Shown: positions 34,268 to 43,160 of the stretch, in pieces
How positions within the stretch are numbered: the stretch's first letter is position 1
Layout of the letters: each line of letters opens with the position of its first letter
Assembly (NCBI RefSeq): GCF_000422485.1
Contig: NZ_KE383857.1
Coordinates: forward strand, 37,519-101,518
Source: Paenibacillus pasadenensis DSM 19293
Lineage (GTDB): Bacteria; Bacillota; Bacilli; Paenibacillales; Paenibacillaceae
Direction of reading: 5' to 3'
DNA: 64,000 bases
Made by a program: the position numbers and the translations under genes
The notes under the pieces: generated by a model
The model's input: the letters and a program-made list of their open reading frames with translations, nothing else
Told to the model about the DNA's origin: nothing
Database searches by the model: none

Positions 34268-34512
34268 TCCTTGATTCCCTCCTTTCTTGTGCGGCGCTGC
34301 CAGTTTAGGCTGAAAAGCGTTTTTCTGCCAGAGAGAAAGCAGAGGAGTTCTTGTCGGAATCCGATTCGTTGCCGTCGCAGGCGCTCCGAAAGATGAAATT
34401 TAATGTCACTTGATCCGATATAACATGACATGCGGCATTCTCGAGGAGGTGGGCACGGAGTCTTGTGAAACGCGAAGCATCCAGTTTAGTCGCGAAGATG
34501 GAGGAGAAATCG

Positions 34513-35610
34513 TTGAAAACGAAAGCAACATGGCCGCGCTGGCTGAAGGTCCTTCCGGAGCGCTGGCGCAGCGGCATGAGCCGCGAGGAGAAGAACGGCC
34601 GGGAGCAGGAGCGGCCGGGAGCGGGGCTGCCGCCTCATCGGCAAGACGAGGCTTCGGCCCGGGAGCGCGCGGCGCTGGAGGGCATCCGCGGCTTGTCCGA
34701 GGAGATGGCGGCGACGTCCTCCAAGCTGGTGAAGGAAGCGGAATTCACGATTGAAATGGCGGAGGGCATCGCGCTCTCGATCGAGCAGGTGTCGCAGGGC
34801 AGCGAGTCGATCGCCGCCGGAGCGTTGTCCAACCGCGCGATGCTCGAGGAGGTGTCGCTCGGGATGAGCCATATCGCCGACTCTTCCTATGCGCTGGCTC
34901 AGGAGACGGCGGACGTGACGGGCAGGGCGGAAGTCGGCCTCGGCACGATCGACCGCGCGGTGGAGCAGATGGAGCGGGTATCCCGTTATGCCGAGCTGCA
35001 GATCGAGTCGATGACCCGCATGAACCGGCTGAACGAGGAGATCGAGCAGATCGCGCTCATCGTAGGCCAGATTTCCAGCCAGATCAATCTGCTGAGCCTC
35101 AACGCGGCGATCGAGGCGGCTCATGCCGGAGAGTACGGACGAGGCTTCTCGGTCGTCGCCGACGAGATCCGCAAGCTGGCCGAGCAGTCCGCGGCGTCGG
35201 CCCGCGACATCGGCAAGACGGCGGCGGACATCCGCAGCAATTCCAAGCAGTCGGCGGAAGCGATGAACCGCTTCGGAGGCGAGCTGCGCTCCGGCGTGGA
35301 GCATGTCGGCGAAGCCGGCCAAGCGTTCCACCACATCGTGCAGATGACGGCGCGGGTTTCGGAGAAGGTGCAGGAGATTTCCAGCGTGACGGAGCAGGTG
35401 AACGCAGGCACGTCGGAGATTCTCGTCTCCGTGCGCCAGACGTCGGACAGCACCGAGGTGTCGATGGCCAGCTCCAAGGAGATCGCCTTGTGCGTGGACG
35501 ACCAGCTGCAATCCATCCAGCAGACGCTGAATCATGCGCGCCAGCTGCGCGAGCAGGCCGCGCGCCTGCAGGAGCTGGCGGTTCTGGAAGAGGCGGGAGA
35601 GGCTCGATGA
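34513..35610 (+). CDS. Soluble methyl-accepting chemotaxis-type protein
   Basis: About 365 residues (381 if the GTG at 34465 is used). TTG at 34513 has GGAGGAG six bases ahead and is the better start. No membrane span and no recognisable ligand domain: a short basic and polar N-terminus, then a methyl-accepting signalling domain with [23 protein letters not shown] hairpin (only part quoted here: [15 protein letters not shown]) and long coiled-coil arms. It overlaps the GAF gene by four bases, so a separate GAF protein may act as its sensor. First gene of a five-gene block with TPP- and KASIII-type enzymes. Confidence 0.85.
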
Positions 35611-36041
35611 CGGAGGATCTTTCGCTGATCGCCGACGTGATGGACCGGCTGAGGGCCGCGACCGGAGTGAAGGACATCGCCTGCCATCGGATCGCGGACG
35701 GCAAGCTGATCCCGCTGCTCAAGACCGAGACGGATCGGCTCGGCATGGAGCGCTGGAAGCAGGTGCACGCCGACAACCCGGTGTACATCCGCAACGATTC
35801 GCTGCTGACGGCGCTATTGGAGCGTCCGGAAGTCGTGCGGCTGGACGATGTAGCCAACGATCCGCGCTCGCAGGAGGAGTTTTTCCTGTTCGGCATCGAC
35901 AGCCTGATGATCGCCCCGGTACGGCGCGGCGACGAGGTCGAAGGGCTGCTGATCGCCGCTTCCATCGGCGAGCTGCACACGTTCACGGACGAGGAGGCGG
36001 CTGCGGCCGAAGAGCTCGCGGCGCTGCTGGGGGACAGATAA
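35607..36041 (+). CDS. Stand-alone GAF-domain protein
   Basis: A 144-residue single GAF domain ([20 protein letters not shown] start; [20 protein letters not shown] core; [15 protein letters not shown] end). The ATG overlaps the methyl-accepting protein stop (ATGA), so they are translated together. GAF domains bind small molecules or redox cofactors; the ligand is unknown. I infer it supplies the sensing part missing from its partner. Confidence 0.82.
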
Positions 36042-36100
36042 AGAGCTGAAGACAGAGATAGAGACAGAGATCGATCTAGATCAACCAAGGAGTGGATTCC

Positions 36101-37732
36101 ATGATCGTCGCAGAAGCCATGCTTCGTTATTTGAAGGACCAGGGCGTCGAGCATCTGTTCGGCATTCCCGCAGGCATCATCGGACCGATCTACGACTCGC
36201 TCATCGATGTCGGCATCAAGCCGGTCATCACGAAAAACGAGGCGGGATCGGCCTATATGGCGGCCCGCTTCTCCAGCACGACCGGCCGGCTCTCCGTATG
36301 CGCGGGGGCGGGCGCGGTCGGCGTCAGCAACATGATGAACGGCATCGCCGACGCCAAGCGAGCCAAAGCTCCGATGCTCGTCATCGCCGGCGCGGTCAAC
36401 CGCTGGCAGATGGGCAAGGGAGCGATCCAGGAGCTGGACGGCGAGCAGATGGTCAAGGTCGTGACCAAATACAGCGCGACCGTGCTGCGCGAGGAGGATG
36501 TGCTGACGGAGCTCGATCGCGCCGTGCGGGCGGCCTTGACGCCGCCCTGCGGACCGGTGTACCTGTCGATCCCGATCGACATCCAGCGCGCGGCGTTCAA
36601 CGGTCCGCTCCCGCAGCCGCCGGCGCTCGCTCCGCTGCCGGAGCGCAGGCGGCCTGATCCGCAGCTGCTGCAGCAGGCGGCCGCGGCGCTGCAGGCGGCC
36701 AGCCGGGGGCTCATCTTCGTCGGCCGCGGCGGCAGAGGCTTCGGCGCCGACATCGAGCGCCTGGCCGAGCGGCTCGGCTGGCCGATCATCACGACGCCTG
36801 CGGGCAAGGGAGCCGTCGCCTCGGATCATCCGCTCTATCTCGGCAATTATGGCTTTTCGAGCTCGGACGCAGCCTTCCGCTATGTGAACGGCAGCGAGCC
36901 GGAATGCCTGCTCGTGCTCGGCACGAGCCTCGGCGAGGCGTCGACCTGCAACTTCAACGAGGTGCTCGTGAAGGGCCGCAAGGTCATCCATGTCGACCGC
37001 GACTCGTCCGAGCTCGGCAAGGTGTTCCCGACCGACATCCCGATCGAGGCCGATCTGGGCGACGTGCTGCCGCATCTGCTCGAGCAGGCCGGATCGGCCC
37101 GCGAGCCCTATGCCGCGGAGCGTCCGATCAACGATCCGTACGTGCGCGATCATACGGGACTGTCGCTGCGGCTGTTCCTGGAGGAGCTCGGCGAAGCGCT
37201 GCCAGCCGACACCCGCTATGCCTGCGACATCGGCGAGTTCACCAACTTCGCGCTGAAGTACCTGACCGTTCCGGCCGCCGGCGACTTCGAGATCAACCTC
37301 GACTACGGAGCGATGGGCTCTGCGATCGCCGGAGCGGCAGGCCTGGCCGTGGCCGAGCCGGAGCGGCCGATCGCGGTGCTGGCCGGCGACGGCTGCTTCT
37401 TCATGAACGGCATGGACATTCTCACGGCCAAGGAATATGGCTATAAAATCATCTATGTCATCATCAACAACGCCATGTTAAGCTATGTCGAGAGAGGACA
37501 GCAGTTCCTGTTCAAGCGCACGCTGCCGGACTACAAGCAGGAGCGGATCTCGATCGCCGCGATGATGGAGGCGGCCGGCGTCCGCTCGATGACCGTCCGG
37601 CAGCTGGAGCAGATGGACGAGGTCCGCTCCTTCGTGGACGGACTCGACGGTCCCTGCGTCATCGAGGTCGTCACGGACGGCAGCGAGCCGGCTCCGATTC
37701 TCGATCGGCTCAAGGCGCTTGTCAGCAGCTGA
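36101..37732 (+). CDS. Thiamine-diphosphate enzyme, acetolactate-synthase-like
   Basis: A 543-residue three-domain ThDP enzyme. The catalytic Glu of the Pyr domain lies in TKNEAGSAYMAA, and the Mg-ThDP motif is GDGCFFMNGMD then VIINNAMLSYV. The central Rossmann domain (GLIFVGRGGRGFGADIERLA) is intact. It belongs with acetolactate synthase, benzoylformate decarboxylase and similar enzymes, but not clearly with any characterised one. Expected chemistry: decarboxylation of a 2-oxo acid, then carboligation or release of an aldehyde. ATG 36101 follows AAGGAG. No ilvN-like regulatory subunit nearby; instead it sits with a KASIII-like gene. Confidence 0.85.
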   Translation: MIVAEAMLRYLKDQGVEHLFGIPAGIIGPIYDSLIDVGIKPVITKNEAGSAYMAARFSSTTGRLSVCAGAGAVGVSNMMNGIADAKRAKAPMLVIAGAVNRWQMGKGAIQELDGEQMVKVVTKYSATVLREEDVLTELDRAVRAALTPPCGPVYLSIPIDIQRAAFNGPLPQPPALAPLPERRRPDPQLLQQAAAALQAASRGLIFVGRGGRGFGADIERLAERLGWPIITTPAGKGAVASDHPLYLGNYGFSSSDAAFRYVNGSEPECLLVLGTSLGEASTCNFNEVLVKGRKVIHVDRDSSELGKVFPTDIPIEADLGDVLPHLLEQAGSAREPYAAERPINDPYVRDHTGLSLRLFLEELGEALPADTRYACDIGEFTNFALKYLTVPAAGDFEINLDYGAMGSAIAGAAGLAVAEPERPIAVLAGDGCFFMNGMDILTAKEYGYKIIYVIINNAMLSYVERGQQFLFKRTLPDYKQERISIAAMMEAAGVRSMTVRQLEQMDEVRSFVDGLDGPCVIEVVTDGSEPAPILDRLKALVSS

Positions 37733-37776
37733 GCGTCTTCCCGCTTTATTTTCAACCAACACGAGGAGGAATCATG

Positions 37777-38118
37777 ATGGGCAGCTTCAACATCAACGTA
37801 GATCGCACAAACCAGGTATTCCATGCCGTAGTAGAGGGCACGTTCACGCCGGAGGAGGGCATGGCGTCCGTACAAGCCTATCAAAAAGAGATCGCCACGA
37901 TCGCCGTGCCGGAGTACGAGATCCATATCGACTGCACGGAGCTGAACGTCTCTTCGCCGTCGGCGCTGCCGATTCTGGAAGGCTGCTTCCAGATGTACAA
38001 GCAGGACGGCTTCAAGAAGGTCGTGCTGACGCTCGCCCGCAACCCGATCCTGAAAATGCAGCTCGGACGCGTCGCCCGCACGGTCGGCCTGGAAAACTGC
38101 GAGATCATCGAAAAATAA
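37777..38118 (+). CDS. STAS-like small protein of unknown function
   Basis: A 113-residue alpha/beta protein. The pattern of strands and helices, with YEIHIDCTELNVSSPSALPIL in the place of the D-S-S-G-L loop of SpoIIAA-type STAS domains, suggests a STAS-like fold; the phospho-acceptor Ser would lie in SSPSAL. It lies between the TPP enzyme (gap about 40 bases) and the KASIII-like gene (gap 23). ATG at 37774 is an alternative start. Function not known. Confidence 0.65.
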   Translation: MGSFNINVDRTNQVFHAVVEGTFTPEEGMASVQAYQKEIATIAVPEYEIHIDCTELNVSSPSALPILEGCFQMYKQDGFKKVVLTLARNPILKMQLGRVARTVGLENCEIIEK

Positions 38119-38141
38119 GAAGATTCCGAGGGGGAAGTTCC

Positions 38142-39131
38142 ATGACAGCGGTTCGCATTCGTGGCATCGAGATCTATCATCCTGAGCTGGAGGTCGGCAA
38201 CGACTATTACATCGATCGCTTCTCCGCTGCCGGCGTGCCGGTATCCGGGCTGCTGAAGGCGCTCGGCCGGGAGAAGCGTTTCGTCATCGACAATGCGGAT
38301 GAAAATACGTACACGATGTCGGTCGAGGCTTCCCGCAAGGTGCTGGAAGCGACCGGACAGCAGGGCTCGGAGCTCGACCTGATCCTGTTCGCGTCCCAGA
38401 CTCCGGAATATCTGCTGCCGAGCATGGCGCTCAAGCTGCATCATGCGCTGGGCGGAGGCAAGCAGACGAGATGCTTCGACGTGAACGCCAACTGCGCCGG
38501 CATGCTCGTCGCGATCGAGCAGGCGAGCTGCTTGATGCAGGGCGATGTCCGCATCCGCAAGGCGCTGGTCGTCGGAGCGGACCACTTCTCCGTCCATAGC
38601 CCGGACAATCCGGTCTACCATTCCACCTTCGCCGATTCGGCCGCAGCCGTGCTGCTCGTAGCGGAAGAAGGAGAAGGCGGCTTCATCGACTCGGTCTACC
38701 AGACCGACACGCATGTCATCGACAACTCCCTCTTCCCGGGCACGGGCTTGTCCCGCATTTACGGCGAAGGCGTTTCGGCGGCGGACATCCAGGTCCAGTT
38801 CACGCCGTTCGACGATTCGGTCTGCGTCGACTCGGCGGTCGACTCGCTGCGCGAGCTGATGGAGCGCAGCGGCGTCCAGCCTTCGCAGGTCGGCGCTTAT
38901 CTGTTCTCCCAGTTCTCGATCGGCAACAACCGGCTCGTGGCGGAGCGCCTCGGACTCGACGAGTCCAAAATCCATTTTGTCGGCGACAAGTACGGCTACA
39001 CGGCGAGCAACAGCCCGATTCTGGCGCTGCATGACGCCATCAAGGCCGGGCGCATCGAGCGCGGCGACTACCTGGTGTTCTGGACCGTCGGAGCGGGCTG
39101 GCAAAACGTATCCTTGCTGATGCAATATTGA
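38142..39131 (+). CDS. KASIII-like (thiolase-fold) protein with non-canonical active site
   Basis: A 329-residue thiolase-fold protein with FabH layout. The nucleophilic Cys118 is kept (FDVNANCAGM). The KASIII His in the HQAN motif is replaced: the aligned stretch is FSQFS near residues 255-259. The Asn of GNT is replaced by Tyr286 (KYGYTASNS). Loss of both residues argues against ordinary decarboxylative condensation with malonyl-ACP; acyl transfer or another Cys-only reaction is possible. ATG 38142 follows GAGGGGGAAG. Last gene of the block. Confidence 0.82.
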   Translation: MTAVRIRGIEIYHPELEVGNDYYIDRFSAAGVPVSGLLKALGREKRFVIDNADENTYTMSVEASRKVLEATGQQGSELDLILFASQTPEYLLPSMALKLHHALGGGKQTRCFDVNANCAGMLVAIEQASCLMQGDVRIRKALVVGADHFSVHSPDNPVYHSTFADSAAAVLLVAEEGEGGFIDSVYQTDTHVIDNSLFPGTGLSRIYGEGVSAADIQVQFTPFDDSVCVDSAVDSLRELMERSGVQPSQVGAYLFSQFSIGNNRLVAERLGLDESKIHFVGDKYGYTASNSPILALHDAIKAGRIERGDYLVFWTVGAGWQNVSLLMQY

Positions 39132-39196: not shown

Positions 39197-39817
39197 ATGG
39201 ATCGAGAAGCGGCAAGGATCATTGAAAGCCTGGGCGAAGGAGCGGAGGGCATTGCCCTGACGTTCGACGACGGACCGGACCCGGAGTTCACCCCGCGGGT
39301 GCTGGAGCTGCTCGCCCGTTACGGTGCCAAGGCGACGTTTTTCCTGCTCGGCATGCGGGCGGCGGAGCAGCCGGAGCTGGCGGCGCGCATCGCGGCCGAA
39401 GGACATGAGATCGGCAATCATACGTGGCTGCATCCCGACTTGACGGCCGAGCCGGAGGAAACGGCGCGGCGCGAGATCGGACAAGCCCAGCAGCTGCTGG
39501 AGCGGCTGTCCGGGCGCGCTCCCGTCCTGTTCCGCAGCCCTTACGGCACCTATGACGACCGCTTGCTCGAGCTGGCCGGAGAGCTCGGATTCGGCTTTTG
39601 CCTCTGGTCGGTCGACACCGAGGACTGGCGGTTGCCGGGAGCCGATGCGCTGACGGAGCGGCTCTCCCGCGCCAGGCCGGGAGACGTCGTGCTCATGCAT
39701 GACGCGGGCGGCGACCGCAGCCAGACGGTGGAGGCGCTCGAGCGCGCGCTGCCGGAGCTGGCGGCGCGCTTCCGGCTGGACACCGTCAGCTCGCTGCTGC
39801 GCCGTCCGGGAGGATGA
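39197..39817 (+). CDS. Polysaccharide deacetylase (NodB family)
   Basis: A 206-residue NodB-domain protein with TFDDGPD (catalytic Asp and metal Asp), NHTWLHPDL (two metal His) and FRSPYGTYDD. The usual late His motif appears as LMHDAGGDRSQT. No signal peptide, so it may be cytoplasmic or the start may be internal. Has its own TATAAT at 39158-39163. Removes N-acetyl groups from a chitin- or peptidoglycan-like polymer. Confidence 0.87.
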   Translation: MDREAARIIESLGEGAEGIALTFDDGPDPEFTPRVLELLARYGAKATFFLLGMRAAEQPELAARIAAEGHEIGNHTWLHPDLTAEPEETARREIGQAQQLLERLSGRAPVLFRSPYGTYDDRLLELAGELGFGFCLWSVDTEDWRLPGADALTERLSRARPGDVVLMHDAGGDRSQTVEALERALPELAARFRLDTVSSLLRRPGG

Positions 39818-39877
39818 CGGGGGCTTCGGCCCCCGCCTCCCCCGCTTTCGCCTTTATACGGAACGAAGCTGCAAAAA

Positions 39878-39917
39878 AACAAGCTGATGCCGGTTATCCA
39901 CCGGCGTCAGCTTGTTT
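39878..39917. terminator. Bidirectional terminator
   Basis: AAACAAGCTGATGCCGG and CCGGCGTCAGCTTGTTT pair over a short loop. Serves the deacetylase gene and the convergent MerR gene. Confidence 0.88.
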
Positions 39918-42593: not shown

Positions 42594-43160
42594 ATGACGG
42601 AGGGGGAAAGGGGCGGCCGCGAGGAGCTGGAGCGGCTGCGGCGCGAGCTGGGCTGCGACCTGGCGATCGCGGGGCTCGCCTTGGCTGGAGGCGGATTGCG
42701 TTGGCGGGTCGCGTCCGGCGCGGTGAGCGAGCGCTACCGCATCATGGCGGAGCGGCCGGGCCGCGGCTTGGCGGGCACGGTGCTGAAGGTCGGGCGGCCG
42801 ATGACGCTGCAGGCGGCGGAGCTGCGGGCCGGGCGGCAGCTGCAGGACTATCCGCTGCTTATCGCGGAGGGCATCTGCTCGGCGTATGCCGTGCCGCTGC
42901 TGGCGTCCGGCCGGCCGAGAGGCGTGCTGCTCGTCGGCTGCCGCGGTCCGAAAGCGTTTTCCGCTGCGGACCGGAGCGCGGCGGATGCCGGAGCGAGACG
43001 GCTGGAGGCGATGCTGGAGGAGCGCCCCGTCCGCGGGCGCGGATCGGATCTTGAACCCGATCTCGGATCGGATCTCGGATCGGATCGAGGCGGGGGCCGC
43101 GAGCCGCATGCGTCAGGGATCGCGGCGCCGCCGGGCGAGCCGCGGAGCGGACAGCTGTGA
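42594..43160 (+). CDS. GAF-domain protein (NreA-like)
   Basis: A 188-residue protein: one GAF domain (about 10-145), then a low-complexity tail with repeated SDLGSD-type units. Followed by a NarL-type regulator and a PAS kinase, the content of the staphylococcal nreABC nitrate/oxygen system, in which NreA is a nitrate-binding GAF protein. The likeness is by architecture; ligand residues cannot be judged by eye. Preceded by GAGGGAACGGCA. Confidence 0.7.
   Translation: MTEGERGGREELERLRRELGCDLAIAGLALAGGGLRWRVASGAVSERYRIMAERPGRGLAGTVLKVGRPMTLQAAELRAGRQLQDYPLLIAEGICSAYAVPLLASGRPRGVLLVGCRGPKAFSAADRSAADAGARRLEAMLEERPVRGRGSDLEPDLGSDLGSDRGGGREPHASGIAAPPGEPRSGQL

Follow-up and report, generated by a model that had tools for sequence, protein, structure and literature searches.

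The window analysed in this study, a stretch of 64,000 nucleotides from Paenibacillus pasadenensis DSM 19293 (contig NZ_KE383857.1, positions 37,519 to 101,518), contains a conserved operon of five genes encoding a soluble methyl-accepting chemotaxis protein (MCP), a solo GAF-domain protein, a thiamine diphosphate (ThDP) carboligase of the CsmA clade, a STAS-like protein and a KASIII-like protein. Relatives of the carboligase are encoded beside genes for GAF-containing sensors in nearly all the loci listed, and this link between the CsmA clade and GAF sensors is the new finding of this analysis. On the basis of the gene order, the phylogeny and the domains of the proteins we infer, tentatively and with a probability of about 0.42, that the five genes encode a carboligase-sensor module whose acyloin-type product serves as a signal that is read by the GAF protein and passed on to the MCP. 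A common function of the genes as a unit is far more likely than this full signalling mechanism.

Organization and Conservation of the Operon

All five genes are located on the plus strand. The MCP gene (34498..35610; PF00015 MCPsignal, 1.1e-36) has an ambiguous start, either GTG 34465, ATG 34498 or TTG 34513, the last giving a protein of 365 aa; the ATG at 34498 matches the start in the related locus L033, whose MCP begins MEENSLNT (loci and genomes are denoted here by L and G numbers). It overlaps by 4 nt (ATGA) with the gene for the 144-aa GAF protein (35607..36041; PF01590, 9.6e-9, and a structure model), which is followed after 59 nt by the gene for the 543-aa ThDP enzyme (36101..37732), assigned by three TPP_enzyme domains (Pfam, 2.2e-27 to 8.8e-31) and by its position in the tree. 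A gap of 44 nt separates the latter from the STAS-like gene (37774..38118), which starts at 37777 or at an alternative ATG 3 nt earlier (37774) and encodes 113-114 aa with a predicted STAS fold, and a further 23 nt lead to the gene for the 329-aa KASIII-like protein (38142..39131; PF08541 and PF08545, ACP_syn_III/III_C, 6.6e-15 and 3.3e-18). The genes, strand and spacing given in the initial annotation agreed with the list of open reading frames and with a Pfam scan of eight window proteins, and the operon is confirmed as real. A search of the plus strand from 34200 up to the MCP gene revealed no promoter-like site.

Conservation was surveyed in 394 genomes taken as Paenibacillaceae. The KASIII subfamily was detected in 176 of these (E-value 1e-30) and the ThDP enzyme in 63 (E-value 1e-80), the ThDP matches being split into a window type with 65-100% identity (22 genomes) and 43 matches near 40% identity (37-42%); both types co-occur in two genomes, G112 and G131. 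KASIII proteins of at least 60% identity were present in exactly the 22 genomes with the window-type ThDP enzyme. The ThDP, STAS and KASIII genes are adjacent on one strand in 22/22 window-type loci (the window and 21 others), and since this order is kept in every genome with this ThDP type the arrangement is far beyond chance (the gene-order table of the 21 loci uses first-possible starts, from which the negative gaps in 3 of its 21 rows stem). The GAF gene was found in 18 of the 21 loci in which it could be tested (absent from L033-L035, with L045 cut by a contig end) and the MCP gene in 16 of 20 (absent from L053, L054, L059 and L060, with L045 and L056 cut by contig ends). The neighbourhood comparison across the family suggested in the initial annotation, in which scattered homologs would have spoken against a joint system, thus revealed a kept order, and the operon is conserved.

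Phylogenetic Placement of the ThDP Enzyme

The closest solved structure to the window ThDP enzyme was CsmA (PDB 8x3z, 5.4e-113), followed by BbmA (3.5e-73), and the sequence identities were 38.6% to CsmA, 31.3% to BbmA and 27-31% to four Nannocystales enzymes. In a tree of 63 rows the window-type enzymes, the CsmA group and a GAF-kinase group formed one clade of 38 rows with a support of 100/100; the tree, in which CybE was not included, was midpoint rooted, so this clade is to be read as one side of a branch. CsmA was sister to an enzyme of Chryseomicrobium aureum (86% identity), the nearest named relative. In the tree alignment every row of the two sensor-linked clades (the CsmA clade and the second clade described below) retains the catalytic Glu47 and the GDG and NN motifs. 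At L105 (8001-9644, Neobacillus) a CsmA-like gene is broken into two open frames.

A housekeeping acetolactate synthase was rejected as the identity of the window enzyme by its TIGR00118 score of 247.5 bits against a cut-off of 538.35, and the tree placement also argues against it. Column 466 holds Gly in the window enzyme versus Trp in three acetolactate synthase rows (L255, L257, and L261). A search of the class using BbmA as query gave matches in 325 of 398 genomes, with 34-38% identity among the matches listed, and these proteins were taken to be mostly ordinary acetolactate synthases with the exception of L254. The latter, recovered by this search and labelled as an acetolactate synthase beforehand, has Gly at column 466 like the CsmA clade, falls in the GAF-kinase subclade and has GAF and kinase domains in its upstream frame.

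Sensor Genes Adjoining CsmA-Clade Enzymes

The CsmA-clade loci outside the window type comprised 40 of the 43 family loci (not G360, G361, and G367) and at least 27 named loci, five of which apparently duplicate records among the family loci, giving 62 distinct loci. A GAF signalling gene lies directly upstream on the same strand in 40/40 family loci; 31 of these sensors have the architecture GAF-PAS-GGDEF-EAL and nine are GAF-kinases, the kinase gene being preceded in these nine loci by response regulator-GGDEF and HD-GYP genes. Among the 27 named loci listed there were 19 GAF-PAS-GGDEF-EAL genes, five GAF-kinase genes and one divergent GAF-kinase gene (L123), with none found in two. Altogether a GAF sensor gene adjoins the enzyme gene in 60 of the 62 distinct loci listed (48 GAF-PAS-GGDEF-EAL and 12 GAF-kinase, one of them divergent), the sensor domains having been confirmed by Pfam on samples of the loci. 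L107, the sister row of the Planococcus loci L085 and L100, has an upstream GAF-GGDEF-EAL gene.

As a control, the remaining ThDP loci for which 1000 or more bases of upstream sequence were available were searched for a signalling gene on the enzyme's strand and no more than 800 bases away. Such a gene was present in 2 of these 46 loci (L109 and L120), compared with 59 of 62 for the CsmA clade under the same rule. The control includes L255-L263, taken as acetolactate synthases, of which 0/9 had a signalling gene, as well as L122 and L158, which score like the second clade and neither of which had one.

Since the CsmA-clade loci are related by descent, the 60 loci are not independent events. 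The more independent part of the pattern is that the output switches (MCP, GGDEF-EAL or kinase) while GAF stays. The fact that relatives of the enzyme adjoin several kinds of sensor genes suggests a possible signalling role for the product, as opposed to that of an ordinary nutrient. These loci also strengthen the link between an acyloin-type enzyme and sensing that the initial annotation had guessed. No description of ThDP-GAF, ThDP-GGDEF or ThDP-MCP operons was found in the open-licence PubMed Central (PMC) literature, although the paper on CsmA itself may mention its neighbours.

A Second ThDP Clade and the Distribution of STAS-KASIII

A second ThDP clade, with 29% identity to the window enzyme, was found in 144 of the 394 family genomes (147 matches, E-value 1e-120). 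Forty of the matches had less than 60% identity, and in the 20 of them that were examined the upstream gene encodes a PAS kinase in seven, a PAS-GGDEF-EAL protein in 12 and no sensor in one (L244). A carboxymuconolactone-decarboxylase-like gene is located 3' of the enzyme gene in 13 loci (the 12 with PAS-GGDEF-EAL and the sensor-less one). At L234-L240 (7 loci) second-clade enzymes of about 50% identity are encoded directly behind PAS histidine kinases. Among the named second-clade loci listed that lack STAS, L133, L149, and L157 have an upstream PAS-GGDEF-EAL gene; at L152 the upstream sequence is too short to judge a sensor gene.

For the second-clade enzymes of at least 72% identity a KASIII-like gene was found within 4 kb downstream in 94 of 107 cases, at 766-2895 bases, and conversely 94 of 97 KASIII rows of 48-52% identity have a second-clade enzyme upstream. 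In the 26 second-clade loci without KASIII at least 1486 bases downstream were seen (at least 1500 in 25), so that a distant KASIII gene may be missed. The 21 STAS-carrying second-clade loci include nine with a sensor-less MCP gene within about 720 bases upstream (L038, L039, L081, L082, L147, L148, and L153-L155) and three with a CHASE3-type or more distant MCP (L036, L146, and L150). As far as examined, STAS-KASIII accompanies the MCP or solo-GAF versions of both ThDP clades, and its attachment to both suggests that its function is linked to carboligase products.

Properties of the GAF Protein and the MCP

The predicted structure of the GAF protein (pLDDT 89.4) matches the GAF domains of several sensors. 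The window MCP contains the MCP signalling domain according to Pfam and no hydrophobic stretch (highest 19-residue mean 1.27), and there are two CheW matches in the genome. Judged by hydropathy, 5 of the 16 MCPs encoded in window-type units are soluble (the window and 4 of 15 relatives). In the remaining 11, one or two hydrophobic stretches were detected, at most 40 residues apart and thus too close together to accommodate an extracytoplasmic sensor domain. The input to these MCPs would hence be internal or membrane-borne. The nine close second-clade MCPs resemble the window-type MCPs.

Properties of the KASIII-Like and STAS-Like Proteins

In the KASIII alignment A1 (15 rows) Cys118, Ser256-Gln257 and Gly285-Tyr286-Thr287 are invariant, while 7/7 FabH-type proteins from relatives carry Cys, His and Asn in the corresponding positions. 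A FabH paralogue was rejected as the identity of the window protein, as Cys118 is kept but Ser256 and Tyr286 replace His and Asn of the triad. With these two columns changed, decarboxylative condensation by the window protein is unlikely, and its reaction is probably an acyl transfer. At L062, L063, and L064 there are KASIII-like genes of 51% identity with no STAS match in the stretch examined.

Adjacent ThDP-KASIII pairs are also found in the order of Nannocystis and in metagenome-assembled genomes (MAGs) of Deltaproteobacteria. Six KASIII proteins of such pairs have Cys in 5/6, His in 4/6 and Asn in 3/6 at the columns in question; they scored 54-77 bits to the profile of the window subfamily and differ from it in the His/Asn columns. 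L189, from the order of Nannocystis, is a candidate for the furanolide type based on its 47% identity to BbmA and the 4-nt overlap of its ThDP and KASIII genes. No cyanobacterial CybF was present among the contig matches listed. Two Deltaproteobacteria MAGs have ThDP-KASIII pairs in a two-component setting, with the order kinase-ThDP-KASIII at L109 (6184-10804) and regulator-ThDP-KASIII-kinase at L132 (7279-13896).

The 113-aa STAS-like protein had no Pfam match at 1e-3. Its predicted structure (pLDDT 86.7) had chains of RsbV, SpoIIAA and RsbS among the four best Foldseek matches (E-values 5.4e-4 to 2.0e-3, query TM 0.49-0.67), so that the STAS-like label of the initial annotation is right and the modelled protein has a STAS fold. 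The phosphosite motif of the STAS proteins SpoIIAA and RsbV is DSSG; it is absent from 11/11 rows of the STAS-like alignment A2, and a phosphoswitch of the SpoIIAA/RsbV kind was rejected on these grounds. A second STAS-like gene occurs 3' of the KASIII-like gene at L057, L059, and L060.

Neighbouring Genes

The next gene after the KASIII-like gene is a polysaccharide deacetylase gene (39197-39817), for which no tblastn match was obtained in 14 KASIII loci, five of them with the window-type ThDP-STAS-KASIII. A strong terminator-like hairpin of 18 pairs is situated 3' of it (39877-39917). A further solo GAF protein (42594-43160, by Pfam) is encoded directly 5' of a frame that resembles a response regulator on reading alone.

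Proposed Mechanism and Alternative Explanations

In the mechanism that we propose, the CsmA-clade ThDP enzyme would take a pair of alpha-keto acids as substrates and fuse them into an alpha-hydroxy-beta-keto acid, from which loss of CO2 can yield an alpha-hydroxyketone (acyloin). The KASIII-like protein would probably move an acyl group onto the ThDP product by O-acylation or lactonisation, as reported for CybF, and the STAS-like protein would be its partner, either structurally or in regulation. Inside the cell, the solo GAF protein would bind the product or a keto-acid precursor and act, presumably by contact, on the sensor-less MCP, and the MCP would feed the CheA/CheW pathway and thereby affect motility. 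Counted in favor of a carboligase-sensor module were the constant ThDP-STAS-KASIII order in 22/22 window-type loci, the attachment of KASIII-STAS to both ThDP clades, the MCPs with an internal or membrane-borne input, the GAF sensor genes at 60 of the 62 listed CsmA-clade loci together with their repeat in the second clade and at L254, the ThDP-KASIII pairs with two-component genes at L109 and L132, and the AcoR protein of Bacillus, a GAF-containing activator that controls a pathway induced by the acyloin acetoin (excerpts of PMC4428206).

Several observations weigh against this mechanism. The absence of the GAF gene from 3 of 21 and of the MCP gene from 4 of 20 testable window-type loci indicates that neither is indispensable, and no MCP was found in the stretch examined at nine of the 21 STAS-carrying second-clade loci (L037, L061, L078-L080, L083, L084, L137, and L141, with L037 and L137 apparently the same record). 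No sensor gene was found near the CsmA-like enzymes of Planococcus L085 and L100, nor upstream on the same strand at the second-clade loci L244, L122, and L158. STAS or KASIII was found at 0 of the 27 named CsmA-clade loci listed (1372 to 7988 bases downstream examined). For the 43 family matches near 40% identity, whole-genome coordinates, used as the stretches of 40 of these loci extended only 247-809 bases downstream, place no KASIII gene close to the enzyme gene; 40 of the 43 are in genomes without the KASIII subfamily (E-value 1e-30), and in G002, G112, and G131 the KASIII gene is far off. The KASIII step is consequently not part of the common core, and 13 of the 107 second-clade enzymes of at least 72% identity likewise have no KASIII nearby. 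The unit contains no gene for a CoA ligase or other acyl donor, the kinase at L109 has no GAF or PAS match, and the KASIII protein at L132 has Ser for Cys.

Three alternative explanations were considered. GAF and PAS domains commonly read metabolites, and the GAF protein may thus sense a keto-acid substrate, the redox state or another metabolite, with the enzyme co-expressed to consume or buffer it and the product being no signal. A general metabolic input of this kind predicts enzymes tied to chemotaxis and c-di-GMP outputs alike, as was observed, and none of the five genes resembles an exporter or an extracellular receptor by Pfam and hydropathy. However, the presumed ordinary acetolactate synthases L255-L263 show no sensor link, and the addition of KASIII-STAS suggests that the product is processed further; we consider such feedback sensing unlikely. 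Even less probable, although compatible with the tight coupling of the enzyme to very different outputs, is a ThDP protein that acts as partner or ligand sensor of the adjoining signalling protein with incidental catalysis; we regard this as the most improbable of the three given that Glu, GDG and NN are conserved in every row of both sensor-linked clades and that CybE homologues are described as biocatalysts (excerpts of PMC12395478).

The remaining alternative, a specialised-metabolite pathway of the furanolide type in which the ThDP and KASIII-like enzymes make a butenolide-like compound and GAF and MCP are accessory regulators, draws on the synthesis of furanolides. There, the ThDP enzyme CybE is paired with the 3-oxoacyl-ACP-synthase-like CybF (excerpts of PMC8777810 and PMC12395478), CybE forming an acyloin-type acid that CybF O-acylates and cyclises (excerpts of PMC12395478, PMC8777810, and PMC13288894). 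The initial annotation, which took the pairing of an acetolactate-synthase-like enzyme and a KASIII-like protein to be without precedent in described pathways, was wrong on this point, as CybE and CybF are such a pair. The neighbouring ThDP-KASIII genes in the order of Nannocystis and in the Deltaproteobacteria MAGs fit such a pathway as well. Nevertheless, it appears quite unlikely for the window, where the ThDP enzyme is nearer to CsmA than to BbmA or the four Nannocystales enzymes, the His/Asn-column residues of the KASIII-like protein recur in 0/6 of the compared pair proteins, and the genes of the unit include neither a CoA ligase nor an ammonia lyase; neither was present among the eight Pfam-scanned window proteins, the rest of the window and the genome not having been searched.

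An extension of the carboligase-sensor module to two Bacillota ThDP carboligase clades that are both signal synthases, each with its own GAF/PAS reader and with interchangeable outputs (chemoreceptor, GGDEF-EAL, or histidine kinase with c-di-GMP partners), is a joint claim that we put forward as rather doubtful. If true, acyloin-type molecules would be a widespread class of bacterial signals for moving versus settling, with STAS-KASIII as the tailoring module by which the chemotaxis branch is distinguished. A ThDP route with in-operon sensor genes, shared by many Gram-positive soil bacteria, would add a new signal source. The operon moreover gives CsmA, met in print only as a biocatalyst, a testable native context, and the system offers a handle on the ligands of GAF domains ahead of GGDEF-EAL proteins.

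Comparison with Known Systems

The window enzyme shares with CsmA the 100/100 clade, the kept GDG, NN and Glu residues and the top PDB match, whereas the CsmA subclade is found mostly behind GAF-PAS-GGDEF-EAL genes and without STAS-KASIII in the stretches examined. The KASIII-like protein has the fold family and the Cys of FabH but in 15/15 rows has Ser instead of His and Tyr instead of Asn. Similarly, the STAS-like protein has its fold in common with SpoIIAA/RsbV but has neither DSSG nor a partner kinase among the five genes.

Alpha-hydroxyketone signals have been described in a small number of Gram-negative bacteria that possess pyridoxal phosphate (PLP)-dependent synthases, e.g., LAI-1 of Legionella. 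The proposed product class and the coupling of enzyme genes with signal transduction are common to the Lqs/Cqs systems and the operon. Their synthases LqsA and CqsA are PLP enzymes, whereas none is encoded by the five genes, as the initial annotation had noted and Pfam bears out for these genes (the genome was not searched), and the Lqs/Cqs receptor types differ from those of the window. With the CybE/CybF pair of cyanobacterin synthesis the operon shares a ThDP carboligase paired with a KASIII-like protein, but in the window a STAS gene lies between the two, and relative to the furanolide systems the unit adds STAS, GAF and MCP.

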